Shown here: positions 39,190 to 63,199 of the stretch, one piece after another
Numbering within the stretch: position 1 is the first letter of the stretch
How the letters are laid out: every line of letters begins with the position of its first letter
Source: Parahaliea mediterranea
GTDB lineage: Bacteria > Pseudomonadota > Gammaproteobacteria > Pseudomonadales > Halieaceae
Length of the DNA stretch: 64,000 bases
Direction: 5' to 3'
NCBI RefSeq assembly: GCF_003402235.1
Contig: NZ_QEWO01000005.1
Location: 496,001 to 560,000 of the forward strand
The notes under the pieces: model-generated
Told to the model about the DNA's origin: nothing
Databases searched by the model: none
The model's input: only the letters and a program-made list of their open reading frames with translations
Made by a program: the position numbers and the translations under genes

Positions 39190-39199
39190 AGGGGCGGCC

Positions 39200-42473: not shown

Positions 42474-43274
42474 CTACTCCAGCATCCATGCGTGCGCCGG
42501 GTCGTTGTGAAAAATCCATTCCCGTTTTGGCCCGGCCATGACATTGAGGTAGTACAGGTCGTAGCCATGGGGCGCGCCAACGGGGTGGTAGCCACGTGGC
42601 ACCATGACAACATCGCCGTCTTCCACCGCCATGGTTTCATCGAGGCTGCGATCGTCGGTATACACCCGCTGGAAGGCGAACCCCTGGGGGGGGGACAGGC
42701 GATGGTAGTAGGTTTCTTCCAGGTGGGTTTCCCGGGGAGCGTCGTCGGTGTCGTGCTTGTGCGGCGGATAGCTGGACCAGTTGCCGTTGGGCGTAATGAC
42801 CTCCACCACCAGCAGGCTTTCTGCATCACCATTGCCGAACAGAATATTGCAGATCAAGCGGCGGTTGCTGCCGCTGCCTCGCTCGCTGCGTTCGCAGTCT
42901 TGCGGGTGTATCAGCCGCGGCGGGAAACGGCCACTGGCAGGGGCGGAGCACACGGCCAGTTCCAGGTCGGTGTCTGCGGTGACGGTGTAGTCGCAACCCG
43001 GCGGGACGTAAACTGCGTAGGGGGCTTTGCCTTCAAACGGACCGCTGCGATCGCCAATACCGTCCCAGGCCCGGGCACCGGCACGCACGCTGGCACGCCC
43101 CCCCACCAGCACCAGGCACAGTTCCCGGTCTTCACTGTTGCGCACGAGCGTACGCCCGGCCTCGAGGTGGTAGCAGTCGAACCCCACATAGCGCCAGCCG
43201 GCGGACGCGGGGGTGATGTGCTGGGTGCGCCCGCTGTCGTCGGGCGCCTGGCGGCGGCAGAGCAGGTGAGACAT
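42474..43274 (-). CDS. iolB: 5-deoxy-glucuronate isomerase
   Basis: IolB converts 5-deoxy-D-glucuronate to 2-deoxy-5-keto-gluconate in inositol breakdown. The 266-residue cupin protein shows the metal-site HKHD pattern (SSYPPHKHDTDDAPRETHLE) and the family features EETYYHRLSPPQGF and VPRGYHPVGAPHGYDLYYLN. GGAGG five bases before the ATG supports the start. It is transcribed on the minus strand with the phytase and RpiR genes upstream, away from iolC, iolD, iolE and iolG, so the iol genes are split between two divergent operons. Confidence 0.95.
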   Translation of the reverse strand: MSHLLCRRQAPDDSGRTQHITPASAGWRYVGFDCYHLEAGRTLVRNSEDRELCLVLVGGRASVRAGARAWDGIGDRSGPFEGKAPYAVYVPPGCDYTVTADTDLELAVCSAPASGRFPPRLIHPQDCERSERGSGSNRRLICNILFGNGDAESLLVVEVITPNGNWSSYPPHKHDTDDAPRETHLEETYYHRLSPPQGFAFQRVYTDDRSLDETMAVEDGDVVMVPRGYHPVGAPHGYDLYYLNVMAGPKREWIFHNDPAHAWMLE

Positions 43275-43299
43275 GGTGTCCTCCGGGGTTGCGGGGCGC

Positions 43300-44655
43300 T
43301 CAGCGCGCCCGGTTGCCGGTGTTCAAGGGCAGGTTAAGGGGTTTGGCAATGTCGGCCCAGTCGACAAACTTGAAGTTGGAGCCTTCGCGCTTGCCGCCGT
43401 TTTCATCGTAGACCTGGGGCTGGTTGTCCCCGTCGTGCATCACCAGCAGCCCCGCGGGAAAGGCTTCGCCGAGGGCGACATTGGTCACCATCATGCCGTC
43501 GGTTTCGTTCACGCCATCCACGCCGTCCCCGTCGTCCACCCGGAACGAGCCGAGATAGGTGTTGTCATTGCTACGGTCGTAGACCGCTACGGTGTTGTCG
43601 CCCTGGCTGGAAACCAGCAGGTAGCCCTTGCCCTTGCCAGCATCGTAAATCGTCAGCCCTTCCAGGTCGACGCGCAGGTGTTCGTCGCCCAGCCCCGGGT
43701 TCTGGTCAAACAGCAGCTTGCAGGCGTATTCCCCTTCGGCGTCATCCCAGGTGCGTTGGTAGGGCACGCCGAACTCGGCCGCACGGGCGAACAGTTGCCA
43801 CTGGCCGCTATCCTGCGGTGCATCCAGGGCGATACGCCAGATCCCCACATTTTCCTGCGCCAGGTACAGGGCGTTGTGGGCGGCATCGGCCACCATGCCC
43901 TCAAACTGGGGTCGGTCGGCATCTTCGTCGGTGCAGGGTGTCCAGCGGCTGTCACCGGCGTCGAATGCATGCGGGAAGTCCAGCCTGGCCACCACCGTGT
44001 AGCCGATGGTGCCGGCATCGCGCTCGCCCAATTCCAGTACTGCAACCTGGGTGGTGCTGTTCTGGCTGACCAGCGCCATGGTTTTACCCTGGTGCTGGTA
44101 GGTCGCCAGGCCATAGGCGGTATAGCCTTCGTTGATGGCTTGCTGGCTATCGCTGAAGATCGCCCCGACACCGGATGCGGTGATCTCCGACAGCAGATAC
44201 TGGCCGTCGTTGTTGGGGCTCATGGCAAAGATCGCCAGGGTATCGAGGCCGCGGTCGGAGGCGACAACGAGGTCTGTCGGCTTGCCCTGCAGGGGAAAAC
44301 GGTACACCACCTCGGCGTTGTTCAACCGGCCAGGGGCGTTGTCGCAGTCGCTGTTGTCGTTCGGGCAGGCGGGCGCCGGCCGCCCCGGGATGTGTTGCAG
44401 AAGCTTGCCGTCCAGGGTGTACAGATCCAGGCCCCCTTCCTTGAGTGTACCGGCGACCAGGCTTTCGCCCGGCTGCTGGGGGTGAATCCAGATGGCGGGG
44501 TCATCCACATCGGTAAAATTGCCGGGGGCATCGTCAAAATGGGGCCGCGTTTCCAAGGTGGCGGTAACGCTGATGGGCTCGGCAGCGCCCAGGTGGGCGG
44601 CAGCGAACAATGTCATGGCGCATATCGGGGCTTTCAGTCGGGAGTGCTGTGTCAT
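43300..44655 (-). CDS. beta-propeller phytase, secreted
   Basis: The 451-residue protein matches beta-propeller phytases (3-phytase type), which use calcium to remove several phosphates from phytate. Visible family motifs include DDPAIWIHPQQPGESLVAGT, KEGGLDLYTLDGK, NNAEVVYRF, EGLTIYDAGKGKGYLLVSSQ and GDNTVAVYDR. An N-terminal signal peptide (APICAMTLFAAAHLGAAEP) sends it to the periplasm or surface. The start MTQHSRLK is preceded by AAGGA; the frame upstream into the RpiR end is not used. It is between iolB and the RpiR regulator in one minus-strand group, which links phosphate release from phytate with inositol use. Confidence 0.93.
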   Translation of the reverse strand: MTQHSRLKAPICAMTLFAAAHLGAAEPISVTATLETRPHFDDAPGNFTDVDDPAIWIHPQQPGESLVAGTLKEGGLDLYTLDGKLLQHIPGRPAPACPNDNSDCDNAPGRLNNAEVVYRFPLQGKPTDLVVASDRGLDTLAIFAMSPNNDGQYLLSEITASGVGAIFSDSQQAINEGYTAYGLATYQHQGKTMALVSQNSTTQVAVLELGERDAGTIGYTVVARLDFPHAFDAGDSRWTPCTDEDADRPQFEGMVADAAHNALYLAQENVGIWRIALDAPQDSGQWQLFARAAEFGVPYQRTWDDAEGEYACKLLFDQNPGLGDEHLRVDLEGLTIYDAGKGKGYLLVSSQGDNTVAVYDRSNDNTYLGSFRVDDGDGVDGVNETDGMMVTNVALGEAFPAGLLVMHDGDNQPQVYDENGGKREGSNFKFVDWADIAKPLNLPLNTGNRAR

Positions 44656-44729
44656 GTTATGGATTCCTTCTGGGTTGTGATCCTGAGTCCAGACTACAAC
44701 TCGCGCTTTAACGTCAGACTGGCGGCGGG

Positions 44730-44743
44730 TGAACAATTGTTCA
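44730..44743. promoter_or_regulatory. 14-bp palindrome between the RpiR and phytase genes
   Basis: TGAACAATTGTTCA is a perfect palindrome overlapping the RpiR stop codon and 75 bases upstream of the phytase start. It may be an operator for a separate phytase promoter. Confidence 0.45.
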
Positions 44744-45640
44744 TTTTCTTCTGCGCCTGGCTTTTGTCTTGTCGCCGTTTTGCTTGTTGCGGCCATTGCC
44801 GCGGTTGCTGCTGCGAGCACTGCGTTCGGATGCCAGAGCGGTGGTGAGCGCCTGCGCCAGGCACATAGACGCCGCCAGCGAGCGAAAGCTGAATACCTCG
44901 GCATCGTGAATATCAAAAAATACGGTGGCATCGCGGGCGATGGCGTTGAGCGAGCTGTCGGTCAGTACAATGACCGGAACGTTCTTCTCCCGTGCGGCGG
45001 CAACCACTTTTGCGGTTTCCTCTGAGTAGGGGCTGTAACTGATGGCTACCAGCACATCGCCGGGCGCCATACTGGCGGCGTGCTCCAGCAGCATGCCGCC
45101 CATGCCGGTCAGTAACTGGGCGCGACAATCCAGGTGGTTGAGGTTGTAGTAGATGTAGCTGGCTACCGGGAACGAGCGGCGCTGGCCCATCACGTAGATG
45201 AACTCGGCGTCGCGCAGCAGCGCCACGGCCTGTTCCAGCGCCGCCGGGTCGGTTTCGTCTTGCAGGTGCGTCAGCGCATCGCGATTGGCCTCGCAATATT
45301 CCTGCAACATGCCTGCCGGAGAGCCGCCTGCCGCGGACTCGCGTTCCGCCACCTCGCGGAAGCGCTCCTTGTAGCTGGCGGAACGGGCGGTGACATGGGC
45401 CTGGAAGGTACGTTGCATTTCGCTGAAGCCGGAGTAGCCAAAAGCCTTGGCAAAGCGAATGAGGGCGGAGGGCTGAACGCCGGCCCGTTCGGCGATTACA
45501 GCGGTGGTTTCCATGGCCATAATGGTGGGGTTATCCCAGGCAAACTTGGCGATCTGTCGCAGGCGCTTGCTCAGGGACTCGTAGCGCTCGGACATCAAAG
45601 TGCGCAGCGAGTCATAGTCCTGGGGAGGGTTGGCTGTCAT
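44741..45640 (-). CDS. RpiR/MurR-family transcriptional regulator (IolR-type)
   Basis: The 299-residue protein has an N-terminal helix-turn-helix (ETTAVIAERAGVQPSALIRF, then AKAFGYSGFSEMQ) and a C-terminal SIS sugar-phosphate domain (VMGQRRSFPVASYIYYNLNH, VAISYSPYSEETAKVV). In many proteobacteria the iol genes are controlled by an RpiR-type IolR that responds to a phosphorylated intermediate. It diverges from the Gfo/Idh-iolCDEG operon across a 216-base AT-rich region with repeated GAATAAA motifs. The basic tail (about 30 residues rich in Arg, Asn and Lys) is unusual. Confidence 0.92.
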   Translation of the reverse strand: MTANPPQDYDSLRTLMSERYESLSKRLRQIAKFAWDNPTIMAMETTAVIAERAGVQPSALIRFAKAFGYSGFSEMQRTFQAHVTARSASYKERFREVAERESAAGGSPAGMLQEYCEANRDALTHLQDETDPAALEQAVALLRDAEFIYVMGQRRSFPVASYIYYNLNHLDCRAQLLTGMGGMLLEHAASMAPGDVLVAISYSPYSEETAKVVAAAREKNVPVIVLTDSSLNAIARDATVFFDIHDAEVFSFRSLAASMCLAQALTTALASERSARSSNRGNGRNKQNGDKTKARRRRK

Positions 45641-45699
45641 GTTGGTGTCGTCCTGGCGCCGCCGGCGGGGCGCGTGTCAAAAGGGTGGCCGGCCACTGT

Positions 45700-45788
45700 C
45701 ATTCTGAAATAAATACTCCAAAATTAGAATGAAGGCTTGCGCTTGCGCCACGCTATGGAATAAATTTATCACAATGAATAAAAAATAG
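45700..45788. promoter_or_regulatory. AT-rich repeats in the divergent RpiR/iol promoter
   Basis: This region has an inverted repeat CATTCT (45700) / AGAATG (45726), a perfect palindrome ATAAATTTAT (45760-45769) inside TGGAATAAATTTATC, and TGAATAAAAAATAG (45775-45788). Similar GGAATTTATATAATT and AGAATAAATATTT motifs occur before the TonB receptor at 52741-52784. They are candidate RpiR operators. Confidence 0.5.
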
Positions 45789-45792
45789 AACA

Positions 45793-45798
45793 TATAAT
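45793..45798 (+). promoter_or_regulatory. -10 box of the iol operon
   Basis: A perfect TATAAT lies 59 bases before the GTG of the first gene, directly downstream of the AT-rich repeats. No clear -35 is seen at 17 bases, so activation or an atypical promoter is possible. Confidence 0.5.
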
Positions 45799-45856
45799 AT
45801 TTTTAGGGTGGCGAGGAGAACAGGTCGTCACCCACTGCGCAGGAGGCATCGCAGCG

Positions 45857-46993
45857 GTGCAGACACTCAGACTGGGTTTGATTGGCAGCGGTTTCATGGG
45901 GCGCAGCCATGCGCTTGCCGCGCATGCCGTGGGCCTGGTCTTTCCGCAGCCTGTGGCCCTGGTCTGCGAGCTGCTGGCAGATTGTGAGCCAGGGCAGGCA
46001 GCGCTACAGGCGCAGAATCTGGGATTTCGCCGCAGTACCGGCGACTGGCGTGCGCTGGTGGCTGACCCGCAGGTCGACATTGTGGATATCTGCACGCCGA
46101 ACCATCTGCACTACCCGATGGCCAGGGCGGCGCTGGAGGCAGGCAAACACGTCTATTGTGAGAAGCCGCTGGCGCTGGCTGTCGGACAGTCACGGGAACT
46201 GGCGTCGCTGGCCGGGGCGCGTGATTGCGTGACTCTGGTGGGTTTTAACTATGCCAGGAATCCGGTAATCACTCTCGCTGCCGAGTTAATTCAGTGCGGA
46301 GAACTGGGCCGTATTCATCATGTGCGCGGCACGCATGTCGAAGATTACCTCGCCGATGCCTTTAAGCCCGGTGGCTGGCGCACCCGGCGCGCGCAGGCCG
46401 GGCTCGGGGCGCTGGGAGACCTGTGTCATGTGCTATCCCTGACCCAGCGCCTGGTTGGCGAGCCAACCGAGGTGTGCGCCGATTTCCAGACGGTAGTGAG
46501 CGAACGGCCAGATGGGCCGGTGGAAAACGAAGACCAGGTGCACGCTCTGCTGCGCTTCACCGGCGGTGCCACTGGCACCATCGAGTGCAGCCGCATGGCC
46601 TGGGGGCGCAAAAACGGTTTGACCCTGGAGGTGTCTGGCAGCGCCGGTACCCTGTATTTCGACCAGGAACGGCAAAACGAACTGTGGCTGTACCGCAGTG
46701 ACGAGCGCGGTCCGGAGGGTTTTCGTCGCATTCTGCTTGGGCCGGACCAGCCAGACTACGCGGCTTTTTGCCCGGCGCCTGGCCACGGTCTGGGTTTTAA
46801 TGACCTGAAAGTGATTGAACTGCGCGACCTGCTCGCGGCGGTGGCCGGGACGGCGCCAGCGTGGCCCGATTTCGCAGCGGCGGCGCGCATCGATGCGGTC
46901 ACCGACGCCATGGCGCGTTCCCACCGCCGGGGTGGTTGGGTGGGGGTGAGTGATCCAGCGGCCGGTGGAGCCGGCGGCAACAGTCAGGAGTGA
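45857..46993 (+). CDS. Gfo/Idh/MocA-family oxidoreductase, probable inositol dehydrogenase
   Basis: The 378-residue protein has a GLIGSGFMGRSHALAAH cofactor motif and CEKPLALAVGQS with the catalytic Lys, plus the second conserved cluster GDLCHVLSLTQRLVG. Its position as first gene of the iol operon suggests oxidation of an inositol isomer (for example scyllo-inositol) or a methylated or phosphorylated inositol, in addition to IolG. GTG start with AGGAGG ten bases upstream. It ends just before iolC, whose ribosome site overlaps its stop. Confidence 0.88.
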   Translation: MQTLRLGLIGSGFMGRSHALAAHAVGLVFPQPVALVCELLADCEPGQAALQAQNLGFRRSTGDWRALVADPQVDIVDICTPNHLHYPMARAALEAGKHVYCEKPLALAVGQSRELASLAGARDCVTLVGFNYARNPVITLAAELIQCGELGRIHHVRGTHVEDYLADAFKPGGWRTRRAQAGLGALGDLCHVLSLTQRLVGEPTEVCADFQTVVSERPDGPVENEDQVHALLRFTGGATGTIECSRMAWGRKNGLTLEVSGSAGTLYFDQERQNELWLYRSDERGPEGFRRILLGPDQPDYAAFCPAPGHGLGFNDLKVIELRDLLAAVAGTAPAWPDFAAAARIDAVTDAMARSHRRGGWVGVSDPAAGGAGGNSQE

Positions 46994-46995
46994 GG

Positions 46996-48930
46996 ATGGA
47001 AGAGCGTCGCTTCGATGTGATCTGTATGGGCCGGGCCGCCGTGGACTTTTACGGCCAGCAGTTTGGCGCCCGGCTCGAGGACATGCGCAGCATGGCCAAA
47101 TACCTGGGTGGATCGTCCGCCAACATGGCCGCTGGCATGTCGCGCCAGGGATTGCGGGTAGCCATGCTGACCCGGGTGGGCGACGAGCACATGGGGCGCT
47201 TTGTGCGTGAGGAACTGGCGCGCAATGGGGTGGATGTCAGCCAGGTGCATACCGACCCGGAGCGCCTCACCAGCATCGTGGTGCTGGGCATCAAGGACCG
47301 GGACACCTTTCCCCTGATCTTTTATCGGGAGAACTGCGCCGATGCTGCCCTTGATACAAGTGATGTCGATGAAGACTTTATCGCCTCGGCCCGCGCCCTG
47401 GTGATCACCGGGACGCACTTCTCCCTGCCCGGCCCTGCTGCGGCCTGCCGCCGGGCCATTGATTTCGCACGCGCCAGTGATACCCGCACCGTGCTGGATA
47501 TCGATTACCGTCCGGTGTTGTGGGGCGTTGCCGGCCATGGCCAGGGAGAGAGTCGCTTTGTCGGCAGCGCGGAAGTTACCGGGCACCTGCAATCCATCCT
47601 GCCCCTGTTCGACCTGATAGTTGGCACCGAGGAGGAGTTTCACATCGCCGGGGGCAGCACCGACACCCGCACAGCCCTGTGCGTGGTGCGTGGGCATACC
47701 GATGCCGTACTGGTGCTCAAGCGCGGCGCCCTGGGCAGCGTGGTCTACGAGGGCGCCATTCCGCAGGACCTGGACCGCGGTGTGAGTGGCCCGCCGGTAT
47801 CAGTGGAAGTCCTCAACGTACTGGGGGCCGGCGATGCCTTTATGAGCGGATTCATGCGCGGCTGGATGGGCGGCGAAGCGCTGGCGCGCTGCTGTTTGTA
47901 CGGCAACGCCTGCGGCGCGCTGGTGGTGTCGCGTCACGGCTGCACACCGGCGATTCCCTCGCGGGTGGAACTGGACGACTACCTGGCGCGCTTTGCCGAG
48001 GTGCCGCGGCCGGATCTTGATGCACGCCTCAATCAGCTGCACCGCTCCACCGTGCCGCGCCGGGCTTGGCCGGCAATTTACGCGCTGGCCTTTGACCACC
48101 GCAGTCAGTTTGTTGAGCTGGCTGCCGCCTGTGGCGCCTCCGAGAGCCGGGTGCCGCGCCTGAAGCGCCTGATCGCCGATGCCTTTCTGGCGGTGGTGGA
48201 GCGGGACGGCCTGCAAGGTCGCGCCGGTGTACTGGTGGACGAGCGCTTCGGCGAAGACGTGCTGGAGTCGCTGACAGGTCGGGATCTGTGGATTGCGCGC
48301 CCGGTGGAGTCGCCGCAGTCACGACCGCTGGCTTTTGAGTATGGCGACAACCTCTCCGCGACCCTGCAACGCTGGCCCAGTGAGCAGGTGGTGAAGTGCC
48401 TGGTGTTCTATCATCCCGATGATGAGCCGGGTCTCAAGCAGGCCCAGCAGCAGCGCCTGTGCAGCTTGTTTGAAGCCTGCTGCCAGAGCGGCCATGAGTT
48501 GCTGCTGGAGCTGATTCTGCCAGGGGGCGGTGAGGACCGGGGCGACGATACCGCCCGGGCCATGCGCGAATGCTATCAGCTCGGTATCTATCCGGACTGG
48601 TGGAAGCTGCCGCCGCCCCCTGATCGGGCCTGGCCGGCGATCGAGGCGGTGATCGATGAGTGCGACCCCTGGTGTCGCGGTATTGTCCTGTTGGGTTTGA
48701 ACCGCCCGGTAGAGGAGCTGGTTGCCGGCTTTGCCCGCGCCGTCGGCCGGCGCCACTGTCGCGGTTTTGCAATCGGCCGCAGTCTGTTTGTGGACGCCGC
48801 CAGCGCCTGGCTTGCCGGCCAACTGGACGACAGTGGCCTGAGGCAGGCAGTGGCAGAGAACTTCAGCGCTATTGTCAGCGCATGGCGCGCCCTGCACGAG
48901 GCCGCAATGCCGGAGGAGGAACAACCGTGA
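46996..48930 (+). CDS. iolC: 5-dehydro-2-deoxygluconokinase fused to DUF2090 aldolase-like domain
   Basis: The 644-residue protein combines a PfkB-family kinase (residues 1-about 330; CMGRAAVDFYG, KYLGGSSANMA, VLGAGDAFMSGFMRG with the catalytic Asp) and a C-terminal DUF2090 domain (from about 345; YALAFDHRSQF). IolC phosphorylates 2-deoxy-5-keto-gluconate. The DUF2090 part resembles tagatose/fructose bisphosphate aldolases and probably performs the IolJ step, since no iolJ is seen. The start is ATG 46996 with AGGAG five bases upstream; GTG 46990 would overlap the previous stop. It overlaps iolD by GTGA. Confidence 0.95.
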   Translation: MEERRFDVICMGRAAVDFYGQQFGARLEDMRSMAKYLGGSSANMAAGMSRQGLRVAMLTRVGDEHMGRFVREELARNGVDVSQVHTDPERLTSIVVLGIKDRDTFPLIFYRENCADAALDTSDVDEDFIASARALVITGTHFSLPGPAAACRRAIDFARASDTRTVLDIDYRPVLWGVAGHGQGESRFVGSAEVTGHLQSILPLFDLIVGTEEEFHIAGGSTDTRTALCVVRGHTDAVLVLKRGALGSVVYEGAIPQDLDRGVSGPPVSVEVLNVLGAGDAFMSGFMRGWMGGEALARCCLYGNACGALVVSRHGCTPAIPSRVELDDYLARFAEVPRPDLDARLNQLHRSTVPRRAWPAIYALAFDHRSQFVELAAACGASESRVPRLKRLIADAFLAVVERDGLQGRAGVLVDERFGEDVLESLTGRDLWIARPVESPQSRPLAFEYGDNLSATLQRWPSEQVVKCLVFYHPDDEPGLKQAQQQRLCSLFEACCQSGHELLLELILPGGGEDRGDDTARAMRECYQLGIYPDWWKLPPPPDRAWPAIEAVIDECDPWCRGIVLLGLNRPVEELVAGFARAVGRRHCRGFAIGRSLFVDAASAWLAGQLDDSGLRQAVAENFSAIVSAWRALHEAAMPEEEQP

Positions 48931-50786: not shown

Positions 50787-51685
50787 GTTTGCGCGTGGGT
50801 ATTAACCCCCTGACCTGGAGCAATGACGACATGCCTGCATTGGGGGCCGATATCCCGCTGGAGCAGTGCCTGCGGGAAGGGCGCAATGCGGGCTACGCCG
50901 GCTTTGAGCTGGGGCATAAATTTCCCCGCGACAGTGCGGTGCTGGCGCCGCTGCTGGCGCGGCACAACCTGGCGCTGGTGTCTGGCTGGTACAGCCTGCG
51001 GTTACTGCAGCGCAGCGTTGCCCGGGAAATTGCCGCGGTGCAGCCTCACCTCAGGCTACTGCGGGAGATGGGCTGCGCGGTGATGGTATGCGCCGAGGTC
51101 AGCCACTGCATTCATGGTGAGCGCCATCGGCCGCTGTCAGAGCGCCCGGTACTGGATGAGCGGCAGTGGTCCGCTTTTGCCGAGCGCCTGTCCGCTTTTG
51201 CCAGCTACCTCACCGACGAGGGACTGACCCTGGCCTATCACCACCACATGGGTACGGTTATCGAAACCGACGATGAGGTACGCCGCCTGATGGCGATGAC
51301 CGGCCCGGAGGTTGGCCTGCTGCTGGATACCGGGCACCTGACTTACGCCGGCGGTGATCCGGCGCGGCTGGCGGATGACTTCCGTCAGCGTGTGGTGCAC
51401 CTGCACTGCAAGGATGTGCGCCAGCCAGTGCTGATGCGTGCGCTGGATGGGGACTGGAGTTTTCTCGAGGCGGTGCTGGCTGGCGTGTTTACCGTACCGG
51501 GTGACGGATGCGTGGATTTCGGTGCGGTGCTCGACGCCCTGCCCACCAGCTACAACGGCTGGGTGGTGGTGGAGGCGGAGCAGGACCCGGCCATTGCCGA
51601 TCCGCCGCTTTATGCGCAGATGGGCTATCGCCATCTGGCCCAGCTTTTGAAACAGCGCCCGCTGGCCTTTGAGGAAAGAACATGA
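50783..51685 (+). CDS. iolE: myo-inosose-2 dehydratase
   Basis: IolE removes water from 2-keto-myo-inositol (scyllo-inosose). The 300-residue TIM-barrel protein has the family features VGINPLTWSNDDMPALG, the metal-ligand region AYHHHMGTVIE, LLLDTGHLTYAGGDP and HLHCKDVR. It starts within the iolD stop (ATGA) and ends within the iolG start (ATGA). The start MSLRVGIN is standard for the family. Confidence 0.96.
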   Translation: MSLRVGINPLTWSNDDMPALGADIPLEQCLREGRNAGYAGFELGHKFPRDSAVLAPLLARHNLALVSGWYSLRLLQRSVAREIAAVQPHLRLLREMGCAVMVCAEVSHCIHGERHRPLSERPVLDERQWSAFAERLSAFASYLTDEGLTLAYHHHMGTVIETDDEVRRLMAMTGPEVGLLLDTGHLTYAGGDPARLADDFRQRVVHLHCKDVRQPVLMRALDGDWSFLEAVLAGVFTVPGDGCVDFGAVLDALPTSYNGWVVVEAEQDPAIADPPLYAQMGYRHLAQLLKQRPLAFEERT

Positions 51686-52740: not shown

Positions 52741-52784
52741 TGGAATTTATATAATTTATTGTAAATTTGTAGAATAAATATTTT
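52741..52784 (+). promoter_or_regulatory. AT-rich repeats before the inositol-phosphate TonB receptor
   Basis: TGGAATTTATATAATTTATT (52741-52760) and AGAATAAATATTTT (52771-52784) resemble the GGAATAAATTTAT-like repeats in the RpiR divergent region at 45.7 kb. The second overlaps the -35 box. They are candidate RpiR operators. Confidence 0.5.
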
Positions 52785-52810
52785 ACCAGAAGGCCGGTTC
52801 TCTCTATACT
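52782..52810 (+). promoter_or_regulatory. sigma-70-type promoter of the TonB receptor
   Basis: TTTACC (52782-52787) and TATACT (52805-52810) are spaced by 17 bases, 56 bases before the GTG start. Confidence 0.6.
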
Positions 52811-55787: not shown

Positions 55788-57170
55788 ATGCAGTGGTTCA
55801 GGCTTTTTGCCACCGGGGAGGACCGGCCGGTCAGTGCCGACAGTGACGCGATTGACTGGGCGTACCAGCGCCACCGGCGCGACGTGATTGTGATCATTAC
55901 GTTGTGCTACGGCCTGGCCTATGTGTGTCGGCTGGCACTGAACGTCGTAAAAAAGCCGCTGATGGATGCGGGTATCTTCACGCCTGAACAACTGGGCATC
56001 ATCGGTTCAACGCTGCTTTACGGCTATGCACTGGGCAAATTCACCAATGGCTTTCTCGCCGATCACGCCCACGTCGGTCGTTTTTTTGCTGCGGGGCTAC
56101 TGTTGTCCGCCTGCGCCAACCTGGGTATGGGCCTGTCGGATCTGCTCTGGCTATCGGCCTTGCTGTGGGGCCTCAATGGTTGGTTTCAGGGCTTCGGCGC
56201 GCCCTCCAGTGTGGTGTCTCTGGCCCACTGGTACAGCAATCACGAACGCGGCCGTTACTACGGCATCTGGAGCACGGCGCACTCCATTGGCGAAGGGCTA
56301 ACCTACCTTGGCGTGGCCTGGCTGATTGCCGCACCTCCCAAGGGGCTGGGTCTGGACTGGCCCTGGGGGTTCTGGGTGCCCGCCGCAATCTGCGTTGTGG
56401 CCGCCCTGCTGGTGCTGCGCTATTTGCCGGACCGGCCTCGGGCCCTGGGCCTTCCCAGTGTGGCGGACTGGCGCCAGGATCACAGCGCCATCGCCAGTGC
56501 CGCCAGTAATGGCAGCGTGTGGAAAACACAGCTGCGTATACTGGCCATTCCTTCCATCTGGGTTCTGGCCCTGGCCAGTTCCAGCATGTATGTCACACGT
56601 TACGCCATTAACAGCTGGGGTAACGTCTATTTACAGGAAATTCGCGGATTTGACCTGTTCGATGCCAATCTGTTCATTTTCCTCAATACCGCGGCAGGCA
56701 TTCTGGGCTGTGTTGCCTACGGCTTTGCATCAGACAAATGGTTCAATGCCCGCCGTCCACCGGCCAACCTGCTGTTTGGCCTGATGGAACTGCTGCCGCT
56801 GTTCGTGATTTTCTGGGGGCCAGACGACCCGCTCATACTGGCGGCGGCGCTGGTGGTTTATGGCTTTGGCCTCAGCGGTATTCTCGCCTCGCTGGGGGGG
56901 CTGTTTGCCATCGACATCGCCCCCAAGCGGGTTGCAGGGGCGGCCATGGGTTTTATTGGCGTATTCAGCTATGTTGGCGCAGGCCTGCAGGACTACATCA
57001 GCGGCCGACTGATTTCTGCCAGCGAAATTGCCTTGCGCTTCCCGCGCGAGGGCGGCGAGACGGTAGTCTACTTCTATGATTACAGTGCGCCCATCCTGTT
57101 CTGGGTCGGCGCGTCGGTGGTGTCGCTGGTACTGGCGAGCAGCCTGTGGAGGGTGCGTGCAACGGATTAA
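55788..57170 (+). CDS. organophosphate:phosphate antiporter-type MFS transporter
   Basis: The 460-residue protein has twelve likely membrane helices and features of the GlpT/UhpT (OPA) family: a DWAYQRHRRDVIVIITLCYG start, WFQGFGAPSSVVSLAHWYSN, RGRYYGIWSTAHSIGEG and the loop LPDRPRALGLPSV. OPA proteins exchange an organic phosphate for inorganic phosphate. Next to a phytase and an inositol monophosphatase, it probably imports an inositol phosphate; that is inference. The ATG at 55788 is used, with GGGGAT upstream. It overlaps the following lipoprotein gene by 14 bases. Confidence 0.85.
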   Translation: MQWFRLFATGEDRPVSADSDAIDWAYQRHRRDVIVIITLCYGLAYVCRLALNVVKKPLMDAGIFTPEQLGIIGSTLLYGYALGKFTNGFLADHAHVGRFFAAGLLLSACANLGMGLSDLLWLSALLWGLNGWFQGFGAPSSVVSLAHWYSNHERGRYYGIWSTAHSIGEGLTYLGVAWLIAAPPKGLGLDWPWGFWVPAAICVVAALLVLRYLPDRPRALGLPSVADWRQDHSAIASAASNGSVWKTQLRILAIPSIWVLALASSSMYVTRYAINSWGNVYLQEIRGFDLFDANLFIFLNTAAGILGCVAYGFASDKWFNARRPPANLLFGLMELLPLFVIFWGPDDPLILAAALVVYGFGLSGILASLGGLFAIDIAPKRVAGAAMGFIGVFSYVGAGLQDYISGRLISASEIALRFPREGGETVVYFYDYSAPILFWVGASVVSLVLASSLWRVRATD

Positions 57171-57642
57171 ACGCGGGGGGTGGTTGGTGGTAAGCGCCTG
57201 GCTGACTGCCTGCGGCGGGCAGGGAGAGAGCAGTTTTTGCGCTACCCACGGCGGCGAGCACTGGCGACACCGCGACCAGCAGCCGGCGCTGGTAGTTGAT
57301 TATGCAGCACGCGGCAAACTGGCGGTGCAGCTGTTGTTGCCTGCAGAAGGGGGTGCAATCGGGAGCGACCTCGCTCCGCGCGATATTCTCGAGCTGCCTG
57401 CCGGCTGCTCTGCAACCGCGCTGCGGCGGGACCGCCGCGACGGGCGTGTTCGCCTGCGGTTTGAGGCCGACTGTGGTGATGAGCCACCGGCGGATTTGTC
57501 TGTTCCATTGCTGGAGGGGCCGGGCGGGCTGCGGGAAATGGAGGTGACTATGACGACCCCGGCGGTGCGCAAGCACTTTGTCATCCATCGCGATTGTGAG
57601 CGGGCATTGTTCAATGTGGGCGGGGAGGCTGCCGGTGACTGA
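57157..57642 (+). CDS. small lipoprotein of unknown function
   Basis: The 161-residue protein begins with a short basic region and hydrophobic signal ending in SAWLTAC, a lipobox, so it is probably a lipoprotein. The remainder (CATHGGEHWRHRDQQ, LAVQLLLPAEGGAIGSDLAP, EMEVTMTTPAVRKHFVIHRD) has a beta-rich look and matches nothing I recognise. The GTG start overlaps the end of the transporter gene and its stop overlaps the next gene start, with GGAGGG close upstream. The tight packing supports a role with the transporter, perhaps as a periplasmic binding partner. Confidence 0.7.
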   Translation: MQRIKRGGWLVVSAWLTACGGQGESSFCATHGGEHWRHRDQQPALVVDYAARGKLAVQLLLPAEGGAIGSDLAPRDILELPAGCSATALRRDRRDGRVRLRFEADCGDEPPADLSVPLLEGPGGLREMEVTMTTPAVRKHFVIHRDCERALFNVGGEAAGD

Positions 57643-58453
57643 CGCGGAACTGGATGCGCGACTGGCAACGGCCTGTGGCTTGGCGCGTAAGGCAGGATGC
57701 TTTGCGTCCGGCAAATTCGCTGACCTGGGCAGCCTCACCGTGCACAGCAAGGGTGTGCAGGACATGGCCACCGAGGCCGATGTTGAAACCGAGGCACTGC
57801 TGCGCAAGGGGTTGGCCGAACTCTACCCCGGGGACGCTTTTCTTGGTGAAGAAAGTTGCAGCGAATTCCGGTCACAGGCCGGGCGTGGCGTCTGGGTGGT
57901 CGATCCCATTGACGGTACCCAGCCATTTATCAGCAATATCACCTCCTGGTGTATAGCCCTGGCCTATGTGCGTGACAGTCAAACCCTGCTGGGGGTGGTA
58001 TACGATCCGGTGCGGGATGAACTGTTCGCCGCGCGCCGCGGTGGCGGTGCCTCAATAAACAATCGCCCGCTGCGAGTGAGCCCGGCTGCCAGTTTGGCGG
58101 ATGGCCTGGTGGGGCTGGGTTACTCCAATCGAGTGGCGCCAGCCGCCACCGTGGGGCCCCTGTCGCGCCTGCTGGAGGAGCAGGGCATGTTCCATCGCTG
58201 CGGTAGCGGCGCCCTCAGCCTGGCCTACGTGGCAGCAGGGCGCTTGATTGGCTATTACGAGCCGCACATGAATGCCTGGGATGCGGTTGCCGGTGGGTTG
58301 CTGGTGCGTGAGGCGGGCGGCCGAAGTAATCCGGCACTGGAGCGCGAGGGCGTGCTGGAGCACGGCTGCGCGGTGCTGGCGGCCGGTGCCGGGGTCTACC
58401 AAGCCTTGCTGGAAGTGGTGAGTGGCGGCGAGACTGTCACCGGTCTTACATGA
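57635..58453 (+). CDS. inositol monophosphatase family protein
   Basis: The 272-residue enzyme has all the metal-binding motifs of the lithium-sensitive phosphatase family: GEES, WVVDPIDGTQPF and WDAVAGGLLVREAGG. Members hydrolyse inositol-1-phosphate, histidinol phosphate or PAP-type substrates. In this operon inositol monophosphate is the natural candidate, and the reaction would deliver free myo-inositol to IolG. The GTG start (TDAELDARL) has GGGAGG upstream and overlaps the lipoprotein stop by 8 bases. No signal peptide is seen, so it acts in the cytoplasm. Confidence 0.92.
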   Translation: MTDAELDARLATACGLARKAGCFASGKFADLGSLTVHSKGVQDMATEADVETEALLRKGLAELYPGDAFLGEESCSEFRSQAGRGVWVVDPIDGTQPFISNITSWCIALAYVRDSQTLLGVVYDPVRDELFAARRGGGASINNRPLRVSPAASLADGLVGLGYSNRVAPAATVGPLSRLLEEQGMFHRCGSGALSLAYVAAGRLIGYYEPHMNAWDAVAGGLLVREAGGRSNPALEREGVLEHGCAVLAAGAGVYQALLEVVSGGETVTGLT

Positions 58454-58459
58454 AGAATT

Positions 58460-58488
58460 GTTAACCTCAGCCTCATGCGTGTTTAACC
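58460..58488 (+). promoter_or_regulatory. direct repeats upstream of the PepSY gene
   Basis: GTTAACC (58460-58466) and GTTTAACC (58481-58488) repeat with their TTAACC cores 22 bases apart, about two helical turns, 45 bases before the PepSY start. OmpR/PhoB-type regulators often bind such direct repeats, and one is encoded just downstream. Confidence 0.45.
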
Positions 58489-58533
58489 CGCGCCGGGATA
58501 GGGTAGGTGGGCAGTCAACACAGGAGGACGACT

Positions 58534-59097
58534 ATGAATCGCTTATCAATGGGTATTGGTGCCCTGGCAGCCGCCATTGTTGCGGCGCCGCTGCTGGCTG
58601 GCAGTGATCCTGAAGAGGCCGCGGTGGCCCTGTACGCAATCGAGCGCTCCGGGGTAACGCTGGACAAGGCCCTGGCCCAGGCTGAACAGGCGGTGCCTGG
58701 CATTGCCTATGAATACGAGCTGGAAGATGACGACGGCCAGCTCTTCCATGAAATCAAAGTTATGGACCTTGAAGGTGAAGTGCGGCACAAGCTGCGCATT
58801 GCCGTGGCTGACGGCAGTCTGAGCCAGAAGCAGGAGCCGCGTAGCTGCGCCGTGGTATGTCGCGACGACGAGGTGCTGGCGGCCCGCGCCTTGCAGGACG
58901 CCGGCTACAGCCTACGGCGGGCCATTGCCGAGGGGGGCGCAGGGACAAAACAGCTGCTGGAGGAAGCCGAAGTGGAACTGGAGCGCGGCGTGCGTTACTT
59001 CAAACTGGAATGGGTTGGCCCGGAGGGTGAGCGCGACCAGCTTATTGATATCGACAACGGCCAGACGATTCCCTCCTTGACCAGTCCCGGTGGTTGA
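58534..59097 (+). CDS. PepSY-domain periplasmic protein
   Basis: The 187-residue protein has a signal peptide (MGIGALAAAIVAAPLLAGS) and two PepSY-like segments: one at about residues 35-75 (ALAQAEQAVPGIAYEYELED) and another at 110-175 (RALQDAGYSLRRAIAE, IDIDNGQTI). PepSY proteins often accompany OmpR-type two-component genes and may modulate their sensor. AGGAGG lies upstream of the ATG. Its stop overlaps the response regulator start by one base. Confidence 0.85.
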   Translation: MNRLSMGIGALAAAIVAAPLLAGSDPEEAAVALYAIERSGVTLDKALAQAEQAVPGIAYEYELEDDDGQLFHEIKVMDLEGEVRHKLRIAVADGSLSQKQEPRSCAVVCRDDEVLAARALQDAGYSLRRAIAEGGAGTKQLLEEAEVELERGVRYFKLEWVGPEGERDQLIDIDNGQTIPSLTSPGG

Positions 59098-59768
59098 TGA
59101 AGTTACTGCTGGTAGAGGATGACCAGACCACCCTGGCCTACCTGTCGAAGGGGCTGAGGGAGCAGGGCTACACCGCCGATGAAGCCGGCAACGGCGTTGA
59201 TGCCTTGCATCTGGCCACCACTGGCCAGTACGACCTCATTGTGCTCGATCGCATGTTGCCACAGCTGGATGGCTTGGCGGTGCTATCTGCGCTGCGCGCC
59301 GGGGGCAACCGCACGCCGGTGATTATTCTCAGTGCCCTGTCCCATGTGGATGAGCGCATCCGCGGGCTGAAGGCGGGTGGCGATGATTACCTGACCAAGC
59401 CTTTTTCTTTCGCCGAACTGCAGCTGCGTATCGACAACCTGCTACAGCGCGCAACGCACCGTGAGGCCCGCATCACTCAGTTGTGTGCCGACGACCTTGA
59501 AATGGACCTGGTGGGCCACCGGGTGACGCGAGCTGGCGATGACATCGCCCTGCAGCCAAAAGAGTTTCAGCTGTTGCGCTATCTGCTGGAGCACCGGGGG
59601 CAGGTGGTGTCCCGTACCCTGTTGTTTGAGGCCGTGTGGGATTATCACTTCGACCCAAAGACCAATGTGATTGATGTGCATATTGCCAAGTTGCGCAGAA
59701 AGCTTGAGGCCGGAGGACGTAGCCAGCTGATCGATACCGTGCGTGGGGCGGGCTATGTCATCCGGTAG
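59097..59768 (+). CDS. OmpR/PhoB-family response regulator
   Basis: The 223-residue protein has a receiver domain with phospho-acceptor Asp (LIVLDRMLPQLDG), the conserved Lys in DDYLTKPFSFAEL, and a winged-helix DNA-binding domain (QPKEFQLLRYLLEHRGQVVS, ...VDVHIAKLRRKLEAGG). It belongs to the QseB/PmrA-like group. It overlaps the histidine kinase by 14 bases. Its targets probably include the PepSY-to-HAD genes, through the direct repeats at 58460. Confidence 0.95.
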   Translation: MKLLLVEDDQTTLAYLSKGLREQGYTADEAGNGVDALHLATTGQYDLIVLDRMLPQLDGLAVLSALRAGGNRTPVIILSALSHVDERIRGLKAGGDDYLTKPFSFAELQLRIDNLLQRATHREARITQLCADDLEMDLVGHRVTRAGDDIALQPKEFQLLRYLLEHRGQVVSRTLLFEAVWDYHFDPKTNVIDVHIAKLRRKLEAGGRSQLIDTVRGAGYVIR

Positions 59769-61140
59769 CGCGCGGCGTCTTGGCTACCCGCGCACCTCCG
59801 TATGGCGCCTTACTCTGCTGTTTACCCTGCTGGTGTTGCTGGTGAACGCCCTGGTGCTGGGAGCGGTGTACTGGCTGACGGTGTCAGAGCAGGAGCGCCA
59901 ATTACAGCGCAATGTGCTGATGGCCGCCGATACCTTTCGGCAGCTGGCTGCCGTGGAGCGCGGCAGTGATGTCGCTGTTCGCCGACTGGTAGAGGCCCAC
60001 GCGCGGGGCGCCGCCAACACCCTGTTGGCGCTGGAGAGTAGCGATGGGGTCAGCGGCAACCTCAGCGAGTTGCCGCGCCAGTTGCCGCGCTATCCTGATA
60101 CGGGCCGCTTTCCTGTAGCGGTATCCAATCTCAGCGGCGATGCCACCGTAGAGCTGGCCCGTGGCACCTGGATAGAGGTGGGCGCAGGCAGATTGATGGT
60201 GGCCCAGTTGGAGGCGGACCAGGGTGCCTACCGACGCGACTACCTGCTGGCCAGTGTGCTGGCGCTGGTACTGGCCCTGCTGCTGACGCTGGTGGCGGGT
60301 TATCTGTTTAACCGGCGCCAGGTTCGGCGCCTGCGGGATTTGAGTGAGGGCATCGAGCAGATCCAGCGCGGCCGGCTGGATACCCGCCTGCCGAGCCGGG
60401 CGGATGGCGATGAGTTCGACGTGCTGGCCGGCCAGGTCAATCAGATGCTGGATGAGATCGACGAACTGCTGCACTCGGTGGCTGGTGTTACTGACAACAT
60501 CGCCCACGACCTTCGCACGCCGCTCTCGCGATTGCGCCTGCGGCTGGACGATATCGCCTCTGCCCTGCCGACTGCGCCGGCATCCGCTGCCACAGAGACC
60601 CTTGGCCTGGCCCAGGCGGATCTCGATGACTTGTTGCAAACCTTTGATGCCATGCTCGAACTGGCGCGCCTGGAACAGGGTATTTTGCAGATGGAAGGGC
60701 GCCCCTGTGACCTGGCCGCAATTGCCCGCGATGCTGCGGAACTGCTGACACCGCTGGCTGAGCAGCGCGGGCAGACAGTCGCCGTCCACTGCGACGGGCG
60801 GAGTCAGGTGTCGGGAGACGCCAGTTTGCTGTTCCGGCTCATCTACAACTTGCTCGACAACGCCATTCGACACGCTGGCGATAAAGCGCATATTCACATC
60901 AGCCAGCATGGCAGGCAGCTTTGCGTAGCGGATAACGGGCCGGGGATTCCCGCCACTGAGCGCGAGCGGGTGTTCCGGCGGCTGTACCGCCTGGACCAGA
61001 GTCGCCATCACCCGGGCACCGGTCTGGGATTGTCGGTGGTGCGCGCCATTGCCCGCCTGCACGGAGCAAATATCACACTGGGCGAGGCCGCTCCGGGTCT
61101 TGTCGTCACCCTGGAATTTCCACCACAGGAGCCTCTATGA
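59755..61140 (+). CDS. sensor histidine kinase
   Basis: The 461-residue membrane kinase has two transmembrane helices (LTLLFTLLVLLVNALVLGAV and LLASVLALVLALLLTLVAGY) around a periplasmic sensor of about 130 residues, then HAMP, the H-box NIAHDLRTPLSRLRLRL, the N-box NLLDNAIRHAG and the G boxes ADNGPGIP and GTGLGLSVVRAI. The start MSSGSARR overlaps the response regulator gene. The stop overlaps the PhoD-like gene by ATGA, tying a phosphatase directly to its sensor. The signal is unknown; phosphate or a phosphate ester would fit. Confidence 0.95.
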   Translation: MSSGSARRLGYPRTSVWRLTLLFTLLVLLVNALVLGAVYWLTVSEQERQLQRNVLMAADTFRQLAAVERGSDVAVRRLVEAHARGAANTLLALESSDGVSGNLSELPRQLPRYPDTGRFPVAVSNLSGDATVELARGTWIEVGAGRLMVAQLEADQGAYRRDYLLASVLALVLALLLTLVAGYLFNRRQVRRLRDLSEGIEQIQRGRLDTRLPSRADGDEFDVLAGQVNQMLDEIDELLHSVAGVTDNIAHDLRTPLSRLRLRLDDIASALPTAPASAATETLGLAQADLDDLLQTFDAMLELARLEQGILQMEGRPCDLAAIARDAAELLTPLAEQRGQTVAVHCDGRSQVSGDASLLFRLIYNLLDNAIRHAGDKAHIHISQHGRQLCVADNGPGIPATERERVFRRLYRLDQSRHHPGTGLGLSVVRAIARLHGANITLGEAAPGLVVTLEFPPQEPL

Positions 61141-62555
61141 AACCTGCGCGTCGACATTTTCTTAAATCGCTGGCCTACGCAGGCGGTTCCCTGAGCTTGC
61201 TGGCAGGTAGCTGGCGTGAGGCGCTGGCCGGCAGTACAGGCTACCCCCGACTATTACACGGCCCCTTGCCCGGGGCAGTGTCTGCAGACAGTATCCAGTT
61301 GTGGATGCGGGCCAGTGGCCGCTATCCTGTGAGTGTGCGATACGGACAGCGGCCAGACCTGTCCGATGCACGGCAAAGCGAGATTGCGCAGGCCGGCCCC
61401 GGGGACGACTTTGTGGCGCGTATCGCGTTGACCGGATTGCAACCGGGCACCACCTACTACTATCGCCCCTGGGTGGACGGCAAGCCCGCCAAGTACCTGG
61501 ACAATGTGCCGCCCTTCCAGTTCACCACAGCCCCGGCGGGGCCGGCGCGCTTTCGCCTGGGTTTTGGTTCCTGTGCTCGCTGGCAGGAATTTCCCCAACA
61601 GCCCATCTGGCATGCACTGGATCGCTGGGAGCCCGATCTGTTCTGCTGGCTGGGAGATAACATCTATGCCGATACAGTCGAGCCTGGAATTATGTCGGAC
61701 CTGTATAAAATCCAGCGGGCGGTGCCGGAATACCAGCGCTTCGGGAACCGGGTGCCGCAGCTGGCGATCTGGGACGATCATGATTACGGCCTGAACAACA
61801 GCGATGTTAACAATCCGATGCGCGAGGAGAGCCTGGCGCTGTTCAAGCGCTACTGGGCCAATCCGGGTTATGGCACCGCGCAGACACCCGGCGTATTCTT
61901 CCAGTATCACTACGGCGGCGTGGACTTCTTCTTTCTTGACAACCGCTATCATCGCGACCCTAATGAGCAGCCCGACGGCCCGGGCAAAAGCCAGTTGGGC
62001 GCGGGCCAGTTGGCCTGGCTGAAGGCCGGGCTGAAGGCGAGCCGGGCCCCCTTCAAGTTGTTGATCTGCGGCGGTGGGTGGTCACACAACCCGGCGGCCT
62101 TTGGCGAAGACAACTGGACCAGCTACCGCCACGAGCGCGACGGCCTGTTTGATTTTATTCGTGATGAAGAGATCGGCGGGGTAATCCTGATGTCTGGTGA
62201 CGTTCACCGGGCGGAAGCCAACTGTATCCCGCGTTCCGGCGAGGCAGGCTATGACCTTTATGAGTTTGTCAGCTCGGGCCTGGCCCAGGATACGCCCATA
62301 CCCGAATCGATAGAGGTGCCGGAAATTCGTCTTCGGGAACCCTTCACCGGCGGTCACAACGCCGGCATCGTCGACTTTGACCTCACACTCGATGACCCGC
62401 AGGTGCGCTTCAATGTGGTCAATGCCGGGGCGCAAAGCGTCTGGGATGAGCCGGTCACAGTGCGCGCCAGTGAATTGCGCAACGGTGTGTCCAGCTGGCG
62501 GCAGAAGGTGGATCCCGAGTTGCCCTCTCCGCGCAGGGACGACATCAACGCGTGA
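61137..62555 (+). CDS. PhoD-like alkaline phosphatase/phosphodiesterase, Tat-secreted
   Basis: The 472-residue protein starts with a twin-arginine signal (RRHFLKSLAYAGGSLSLLAG) and has an Fn3-like domain followed by a PhoD metallophosphatase domain: FGSCARWQEF, WLGDNIYAD, IWDDHDYGLNNSD and ILMSGDVHRAE. It would release phosphate from esters or diesters in the periplasm. It is coupled to the histidine kinase upstream and to the HAD gene downstream (GTGA). A role in removing phosphate from phytate breakdown products is plausible but unproven. Confidence 0.93.
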   Translation: MKPARRHFLKSLAYAGGSLSLLAGSWREALAGSTGYPRLLHGPLPGAVSADSIQLWMRASGRYPVSVRYGQRPDLSDARQSEIAQAGPGDDFVARIALTGLQPGTTYYYRPWVDGKPAKYLDNVPPFQFTTAPAGPARFRLGFGSCARWQEFPQQPIWHALDRWEPDLFCWLGDNIYADTVEPGIMSDLYKIQRAVPEYQRFGNRVPQLAIWDDHDYGLNNSDVNNPMREESLALFKRYWANPGYGTAQTPGVFFQYHYGGVDFFFLDNRYHRDPNEQPDGPGKSQLGAGQLAWLKAGLKASRAPFKLLICGGGWSHNPAAFGEDNWTSYRHERDGLFDFIRDEEIGGVILMSGDVHRAEANCIPRSGEAGYDLYEFVSSGLAQDTPIPESIEVPEIRLREPFTGGHNAGIVDFDLTLDDPQVRFNVVNAGAQSVWDEPVTVRASELRNGVSSWRQKVDPELPSPRRDDINA

Positions 62556-63199
62556 TATTCACCCACTGTCAGGCGGTGATTTTTGACTGCGACGGGGTGC
62601 TGGTGGACAGCGAATACCTCTGCCATGTGGCGCTGTCCGCCGCTCTGCAGGACCTGGGTATTGATGAGCCCGCCCAGGCGCTGTACACCGAGTTTGGTGG
62701 CGTCGAACTGGCGCGGATTTTTGTAGCCATGGAGCGCCGGCACCGTGTCGACCTGCCGGCGGGATTCGAGGCTCGCTACCGGGCAGGGGTGCAGGCGCTG
62801 TTTGCCGAGCGCCTGCAACCGGTGAGCGGCATCGAGTCCGTGTTGCGCCAGCTCACCCTGCCTTTTTGCGTGGCATCCAACGGGCCGCGGGCCAAAATAG
62901 AATACTCCCTTGGTTTGACCTGCTTGCGGGGCTACTTTGGCGAACGGATTTACAGCGCCTACGAGGTGGGGGCCTGGAAGCCGGATCCGGGGCTGTTCCT
63001 GGCCGCCGCTGGCGGTCTGGGGGTGGCGCCGCAGCATTGCCTGGTGGTGGAAGACAGTCCGGTGGGCGTGCGCGCCGCGCGGGCAGCTGGTATGCCGGTG
63101 CTGCGCTACTGCCCGGATGCAGGGTCTGATGCCGGGGACGTGCCCACTATCCAGCGGATGGCGCAGCTGCCTGCGCTGCTGGGTCTGCCCCGGCGCTGA
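62552..63199 (+). CDS. HAD-family phosphatase (beta-phosphoglucomutase-like)
   Basis: The 215-residue protein has HAD motif I (VIFDCDGVLVDSE), motif II (FCVASNGPRAKIEYSL) and motifs III-IV (GAWKPDPGLF, CLVVEDSPVGVRAA). It is similar to the YieH/beta-phosphoglucomutase-like subgroup that hydrolyses sugar phosphates or related esters in the cytoplasm. The GTG start overlaps the PhoD-like stop. It is the last gene of the operon, with only two bases before the convergent SnoaL-like gene. Confidence 0.92.
   Translation: MIFTHCQAVIFDCDGVLVDSEYLCHVALSAALQDLGIDEPAQALYTEFGGVELARIFVAMERRHRVDLPAGFEARYRAGVQALFAERLQPVSGIESVLRQLTLPFCVASNGPRAKIEYSLGLTCLRGYFGERIYSAYEVGAWKPDPGLFLAAAGGLGVAPQHCLVVEDSPVGVRAARAAGMPVLRYCPDAGSDAGDVPTIQRMAQLPALLGLPRR

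Follow-up and report, generated by a model that had tools for sequence, protein, structure and literature searches.

Can one bacterial locus hold a route from phytate to central metabolism, so that a single compound supplies both carbon and phosphorus? Phytate, in which plants store phosphate, is a major organic phosphorus store; phytases and inositol catabolic (iol) genes are handled apart in the literature we searched, whereas a gene island of Parahaliea mediterranea (Halieaceae, a family found mostly in the sea) joins both. The island occupies positions 42474-63199 of the 64,000-nucleotide (nt) stretch analyzed here (contig NZ_QEWO01000005.1, positions 496,001 to 560,000; hereafter the window), in an assembly of 5.09 Mb and 29 contigs. 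A first-pass annotation, made from the letters alone, had described it as an apparently complete set of phytase, TonB receptor, phosphate antiporter, inositol phosphatase, iol genes, RpiR regulator and two further phosphatases. All the families it named are present and pass curated Pfam or NCBIfam cut-offs. Its proposal that the locus joins a phytase-receptor pair and iol genes with an import step and a last dephosphorylation step is supported at the level of sequence, because relatives are colinear, the arrangement recurs in other families with a non-orthologous phytase, the antiporter residues are intact, and the same operator type precedes both operons. We read the island, with a probability of roughly 0.7, as an inositol-controlled pathway that uses phytate for both carbon and phosphorus.

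The minus strand carries rpiR, the phytase gene and iolB, in that order. The plus strand carries three groups: gfo1-iolC-iolD-iolE-iolG, whose ends overlap; 171 nt past iolG, the TonB receptor, the organophosphate:phosphate antiporter (OPA)-type transporter, a lipoprotein-like open reading frame (ORF) and an inositol monophosphatase (IMPase) family gene; and, 80 nt past the latter, genes for a PepSY protein, a response regulator, a kinase, a PhoD-like phosphatase and a HAD phosphatase. Gene spacing suggests that these groups are operons. The Gfo/MocA oxidoreductase, the lipoprotein-like ORF and the PepSY/response-regulator/kinase trio come in addition to the genes listed earlier.

The predicted beta-propeller phytase (43300..44655, minus strand; 451 aa) lies between rpiR and iolB, 25 nt from the latter, and matches PF02333 at 171.8 bits (cut-off 21). 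It was first called as 43300-44931, overlapping rpiR, because it was opened at its first ATG, which is too far upstream; a start at 44655 matches relatives, and the N-terminus there looks by eye like a signal peptide. A predicted model (pTM 0.81) returns Bacillus phytases as its top three Foldseek matches (1qlg, 1poo and 3amr; TMt 0.80-0.82), so that both the family match and a modeled phytase beta-propeller fold are found. An alignment to the Bacillus enzyme shows conservation at the calcium site and at most phosphate-site positions, namely K76, R122, Y159, E211, E227, D258, E260, Q279, D308 and D314 (Bacillus numbering, counted by hand; we take these to be the active-site residues). Phytase relatives that are 36-38% identical in G128, G100, G034, G153 and G071 have no island genes around them; the surroundings in G071 give weak two-component hits only.

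Downstream of iolG, the TonB-dependent receptor (52867..55707, plus strand) scores 612.9 bits against TIGR01782 (cut-off 310), with plug and barrel both matched. The OPA-type (GlpT/UhpC-like) major facilitator superfamily (MFS) transporter that follows (55788..57170, plus strand; MFS_1 144.8 bits, cut-off 33.4) is a candidate inositol-phosphate:phosphate antiporter. Its best NCBIfam matches lie in the OPA group, and its closest solved structure is GlpT (1pw4, E 1.4e-43), with the glucose-6-phosphate exchanger SLC37A4 next. Equivalents of R45, K80, H165 and R269, which we take by number and role to be the substrate-site residues of GlpT, are aligned in the protein and unchanged in 11 of 11 sequences that are 54-91% identical to it (the G654 sequence being partial). 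It falls below each curated cut-off for named members of the group: GlpT (206.7 bits, cut-off 632.55), UhpT (130.1, 497), UhpC (254.7, 564) and PgtP (235.7, 407.75). The natural reading is that it would act as a phosphate-ester:phosphate exchanger.

An enzyme encoded just beyond it bears on the probable substrate. The IMPase family protein (57635..58453, plus strand; PF00459, Inositol_P, 166 bits, cut-off 27) is one of three copies in the genome, shows no export signal by eye, carries DPIDGT, which we take to be the IMPase motif, and has inositol-1-monophosphatases as its best PDB matches. It scores 141.6 bits against the SuhB equivalog NF008027, whose cut-off is 332. In all 11 OPA loci an IMPase gene stands at most about 3 kb from the OPA gene, and because the two are paired, we take the antiporter substrate to be a monophosphate. 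Between the two genes stands a small ORF with a lipobox-like LTAC (57157..57642, plus strand) that has no Pfam match and a poor structure model (pLDDT 51.6); it occupies the same place in seven other loci, at 29-55% identity, and gives no hit in G254, G942 or G1068, genomes that return below.

An alternative is that phytase, together with PhoD and other phosphatases, takes all phosphates off phytate before it reaches the cytoplasm, that free inositol enters by another carrier, and that the OPA protein carries some other phosphate ester while the IMPase has a different function. Many of the clusters do have PhoD or a related metallophosphatase alongside, and phytase-iol loci without an OPA gene in the stretch exist (L066, L068 and G076), so the OPA route is not obligatory. 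Among these, the Aliiglaciecola locus L068 combines phytase and iol genes with a sugar-type ABC transporter, L066 has no polytopic ORF in the stretch, and G076 has a TRAP transporter, its phytase being about 17 kb off. Iol loci without an adjoining phytase also hold other transporters. A Pfam check of 10 membrane ORFs, chosen from a longer list, in seven such loci (L049, L051, L052, L053, L058, L059 and L061) gave sugar-type ABC permeases in three of the seven (L051, L052 and L053), TRAP DctM in L049 and L053, MFS_3/MFS_1 in L051, MFS_2 and MFS_1 in L058, MFS_1 in L061 and a transhydrogenase in L059; the OPA query gave no tblastn hit anywhere in L049-L061. L049 itself comes from G076, and several other genomes in this set have a phytase elsewhere. 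Other MFS proteins of the window genome, including one at 27173-28468, and sodium symporters could likewise be inositol carriers. Against this alternative, searches of the genome with two families gave neither a strong sugar porter nor a binding protein of a sugar ABC system: Sugar_tr reaches a weak 64.5 bits at best, and the top hit to Peripla_BP_4 is a LacI regulator. In addition, each of the 11 OPA loci has not only its nearby IMPase gene but also phytase, TonB-receptor or iol genes adjoining. We therefore consider uptake of free inositol unlikely and direct import of a phosphorylated inositol the better reading.

Once inside the cell, the ring would meet a nearly full set of catabolic enzymes. 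IolB, IolC, IolD and IolE each score above their NCBIfam cut-offs, as an inositol catabolic gene cluster should show: iolB, for 5-deoxy-glucuronate isomerase (42474..43274, minus strand; TIGR04378 353.5 bits, cut-off 205); the kinase-aldolase fusion iolC-DUF2090 (46990..48930; NF047869 844.9 bits, cut-off 600); iolD with a GTG start (48927..50786; TIGR04377 949.4 bits, cut-off 715, scanned from 48660); and iolE with an ATG start (50783..51685; TIGR04379 397.5 bits, cut-off 290, scanned from 50681), the last three on the plus strand. The same strand carries iolG, for inositol 2-dehydrogenase (51682..52695; TIGR04380 409.5 bits, cut-off 355), and gfo1 (45857..46993; PF01408/PF22725), whose product, a Gfo/Idh/MocA oxidoreductase, scores 316.5 bits with LevoglcsnDh, under the cut-off of 650, and is possibly an inositol-isomer dehydrogenase. 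For the full Iol pathway the word "complete" in the first-pass annotation is wrong here, because iolA sits elsewhere in the genome. Among 21 matches to the iolA family (MMSDH), one is above cut-off (758.5 bits; G000:C25:372964-374391), about 164 kb from iolB. The definition of an inositol catabolic cluster, as far as the available part of its source gives it, does not demand iolA within the cluster; three other phytase-iol loci (L037, L066 and L068) do have it.

How the two halves might be controlled together is suggested by the regulator gene and its flanking sites. The IolR-like RpiR-family regulator (44741..45640, minus strand) matches HTH_6 (34.6 bits, cut-off 28.3) and SIS (70.6 bits, cut-off 25). 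Comparison of intergenic gaps gave an AT-rich conserved site, which takes the form of a 16-base palindrome, TRGAATAWATATTCYA, a consensus chosen after those gaps had been seen. Its form is that of GGAA-N6-TTCC, the experimentally supported IolR motif of Caulobacter (PMC2597717, from the part available). Two operator-like sites precede gfo1 and the iol genes on the plus strand, TGAAATAAATACTCCA (45705..45720; two mismatches) and TGGAATAAATTTATCA (45756..45771; three mismatches, with a similar site in relatives), and a third, TAGAATAAATATTTTA (52770..52785, plus strand; one mismatch), precedes the TonB receptor, where none of 500 local shuffles gave as good a match. Matches to TRGAATAAATWTT with at most two mismatches number four in the window, all in the two island gaps, against 0.28 expected. 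The best match to the palindrome in the iolG-receptor gap has one mismatch in the window and in G134, G180, L065, G654 and G174, and the rpiR-gfo1 gap of six genomes holds it at 0-3 mismatches; across 12 intergenic gaps, local dinucleotide shuffles equaled the best site in 0-4 of 500 trials. As a rejected candidate, the exact GGAA-N6-TTCC has one match in the window, at 40696, outside the island and at chance level; allowing one mismatch gives 15, where 15.6 are expected.

Because the 16-mer was picked after the gaps had been seen, the independent part of this comparison is the iol loci outside the choice of consensus. Of 12 further iol loci without an adjoining phytase in the stretch, 9 (L052-L059 and L061) have a site with at most three mismatches no more than 400 nt from rpiR; L051 and L060 have such sites farther than 400 nt from rpiR, and L049 gives no rpiR hit. 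Its presence near rpiR at these loci suggests that the 16-mer belongs to the inositol regulator and is not a phytase feature. Where loci are AT-rich, site counts do not clearly exceed first-order Markov expectation from three shuffles per locus (L053, 16 against 18.3; L054, 23 against 26.3; L055, 26 against 20.3; L056, 13 against 16.3; L058, 9 against 8.0; L067, 14 against 18.3; G174, 32 against 26.0), and the case for an operator comes from the GC-rich loci, from where the sites lie and from the control with local shuffles. The island would put phytate capture under an inositol-type operator, and if binding holds, receptor and antiporter would be under inositol control.

The third plus-strand group bears on whether phosphorus, rather than carbon, is the purpose of the locus. 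It comprises a PepSY-domain protein with a signal-peptide-like N-terminus (58534..59097; PF03413 24.8 bits, cut-off 24), an OmpR-type response regulator (59097..59768; PF00072, PF00486), a sensor histidine kinase (59755..61140; HATPase_c and HAMP exceed their cut-offs, HisKA falls just short), a PhoD-like phosphatase with, by eye, a Tat-like leader RRHFLK (61137..62555; PF09423 95.2 bits, cut-off 27) and a HAD-family, 6-phosphogluconate-phosphatase-like phosphatase (62552..63199; Hydrolase 79.5 bits, cut-off 26.4; NF007854 178.4 bits, under the cut-off of 211), all on the plus strand. The trio of PepSY protein, response regulator and kinase adjoins a phytase in Colwellia (L067:2908-9469 and L069:6945-9576), a two-component system that follows phytases there, with a response regulator 67% identical to the window's. 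Since it accompanies phytase in these stretches, which hold no iol genes, the trio probably belongs to the phytate side. L067, which unites phytase, TonB receptor, metallophosphatase and this trio, is also an argument that the island mainly scavenges phosphate and that its iol genes merely dispose of the leftover ring. We judge that reading improbable: no Pho-box-like site occurs in the window at up to three mismatches to the consensus that we presume for it, the operator-like sites that precede the two operons are inositol-type, and the response regulator is closer to metal-type regulators (240.5 bits) than to PhoB (184.8 bits), both scores being under cut-off.

Linkage of phytase and iol genes was compared with chance. 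In a sample of the order, 12 of 244 genomes (the window genome included) have both PF02333 and an above-cut-off iolD, within 20 kb of each other in five of the 12. A sample of the phylum (398 genomes) holds 43 with PF02333, 79 with such an iolD and 11 with both. Four of these 11, namely the window genome, G254, G942 and G1068, have the two genes no more than 15 kb apart. Genomes with the two genes on different contigs were counted as unlinked (G147, G100 and G071 in the order; G147, G1040, G839 and G1017 in the phylum). Leaving out the window genome, linkage is seen in four and three genomes against 0.09 and 0.07 expected, shared ancestry being ignored. By tblastn, the core set of phytase, TonB receptor, OPA, IMPase, PhoD and iol genes is clustered in G254, G942 and G1068 as well; G254 is of the same class and another family, and the other two lie outside the class. 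Family models agree for PhoD and IMPase of G254, for PhoD, IMPase and MFS of G1068, and for PhoD, OPA and IMPase family of G942. The OPA genes of G942 and G1068 are an independent result, because both genomes came from the phytase and iolD searches and not from a search for OPA. The phytases of all three are of another type, with two phytase stretches side by side (G942, L091; G1068, L094; G254, L085), as is also seen for the phytase of G076 (L050); double phytases may strip more phosphates.

A chance neighborhood of separately acquired operons could draw on the patchy spread of these genes. At E <= 1e-60, the OPA transporter is rare: it occurs in 2 of 369 genomes of the class and in 7 of 140 of the family (both counts include the window genome), and in neither of the two other same-genus genomes examined (G732 and G733), which also lack a match at E <= 1e-20 to rlmJ, the gene used for an empty-site test. 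The region is patchy within the genus and perhaps transferred. Chance is nevertheless contradicted already by synteny, by recurrence in other families with another phytase type and by the linkage counts, and we regard it as highly improbable.

The synteny is as follows, with weaker tblastn hits dropped where they overlapped a better one. As the first-pass annotation had proposed to check, the families co-occur in related genomes: they are colinear in other Halieaceae, including Seongchinamella and Parahaliea, and the core set recurs in the three genomes of other families. The whole island stands in the same gene order in G134 and G180, and G637, G654 and G632 are colinear as far as the fetched stretches extend. 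In G654, also of Halieaceae, the rpiR-iolB gap is 78 nt and holds no phytase, and a different phytase (29% identity) adjoins phoD (L104:2085-2163, L099:1920-4536); the sequence reads as an exchange of phytase while the rest of the island stays. In G642 a partial phytase at the contig end (39%) abuts OPA, followed by lipoprotein and IMPase genes, with iolC, iolG, rpiR and a TonB receptor beyond. G174, from another family of the order, keeps phytase, rpiR, gfo1, the iol genes, OPA (75%), lipoprotein (29%), IMPase (58%) and the PepSY trio; it has another TonB receptor (29% local identity), iolA is present, and the place of PhoD is taken by a phosphatase that matches Metallophos and, weakly, PhoD. 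Frame breaks occur in iolD, iolE and mfs of G654 (L099) and in iolE and near the iolC end of G174 (L037); these are either sequencing errors or decay. The phytase alignment led to nine named loci: phytase and iol genes adjoin in six (L062-L066 and L068), and the other three, all Colwellia (L067, L069 and L070), have no iol genes in the stretch. In a Kangiellaceae metagenome-assembled genome (L066, 7089-13000) and in Aliiglaciecola (L068, 7011-19034), the phytase gene is directly 3' of iolE with iolA nearby, an arrangement unlike that of Halieaceae.

Taken together, these results suggest the following route. The TonB receptor would carry phytate or lower phosphates across the outer membrane, and the exported phytase, probably with the PhoD-like enzyme, would strip phosphates outside the cytoplasm. 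What remains, most likely inositol monophosphate, may cross the inner membrane on the OPA antiporter against phosphate, and the IMPase would take off the last phosphate, which could feed the next exchange. IolG, IolE, IolD, IolB and the IolC-DUF2090 fusion would then break the ring, with IolA supplied from elsewhere in the genome. Shared operators may let the RpiR-type IolR control the iol operon together with that of receptor, antiporter and IMPase. On balance, and with less assurance than the pathway itself, we favor the view that the OPA protein represents a new functional subfamily, an inositol-monophosphate:phosphate antiporter, and that the cluster is a recurrent module within and outside Gammaproteobacteria that leads from phytate to central metabolism under IolR control, built around this OPA with interchangeable phytases and receptors.

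Several observations count against the pathway as drawn. The equivalents of Bacillus K77 and K179, two pocket lysines, are not conserved in the phytase. The IMPase family members fall under all NCBIfam equivalog cut-offs, and that of G942 scores slightly higher as a histidinol-phosphatase (146.9 bits) than as an inositol-monophosphatase (137.1 bits). The island lacks iolA, and no operator-like site is found at up to four mismatches in 20 kb around the genome's iolA. Exact GGAA-N6-TTCC is absent from the island, whose 16-mer is present and conserved at 1-3 mismatches, the window sites having one decayed half. G254 has sites near rpiR and none at up to three mismatches near the receptor, and the sites of G942 and G1068 are weak (2-3 mismatches, without a shuffle control). 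To these are added the OPA-less phytase-iol loci, their transporters and the other possible inositol carriers described above. We nonetheless regard the island as a real and conserved locus for phytate utilization, with probable regulation by inositol.

Elsewhere in the window, positions 1-4000 have a G+C content of 0.56, where most of the window has about 0.65, and hold genes for a TonB receptor and a beta-keto acid cleavage enzyme. A second catabolic-looking cluster (18276-28468), with a TonB receptor, a GMC oxidoreductase, a LacI regulator, a Gfo/MocA dehydrogenase, a sugar-isomerase-like TIM barrel and an MFS transporter, may resemble loci of the keto-glycoside type. Two neighboring RND efflux pump genes and an HlyD-type adaptor gene lie at 33011-40498. 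An Rfam scan at gathering scores gave no match.

A description of a joined phytase-iol locus was not found in the open-access literature searched, which is weak evidence of absence, and the comparison is with its parts. The island phytase shares its fold and most active-site positions with the Bacillus beta-propeller phytases (1poo, 3amr); it is longer, 28-29% identical in the fold alignment, and differs in the pocket lysines noted above. Side-by-side phytase and receptor genes are also described in Citromicrobium bathyomarinum JL354 (PMC3400609); unlike the island, that pair is presented, in the available portion of the report, with no mention of iol genes, an antiporter or an IMPase. With GlpT, UhpT, UhpC and PgtP the OPA protein has in common the sequence family and four substrate-site residues; it differs in lying under every curated cut-off and in that the 11 OPA loci adjoin phytase, TonB-receptor or iol genes. 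Caulobacter takes up free inositol through the ABC system IbpA-IatAP (PMC9430895, PMC2597717), whereas the island points to a candidate transporter that would import phosphorylated inositol directly. As far as the accessible parts of these two sources go, IolCatGC and the Caulobacter iol module share with the island iolB, iolC, iolD, iolE, iolG, an RpiR regulator and GGAA-N6-TTCC-like sites, and the island adds phytase, TonB receptor, OPA antiporter, IMPase, PhoD and the same site type before the receptor operon. By these likenesses the locus appears to be a new form of the inositol catabolic cluster already known, to which it adds a transporter whose candidate function would be new.

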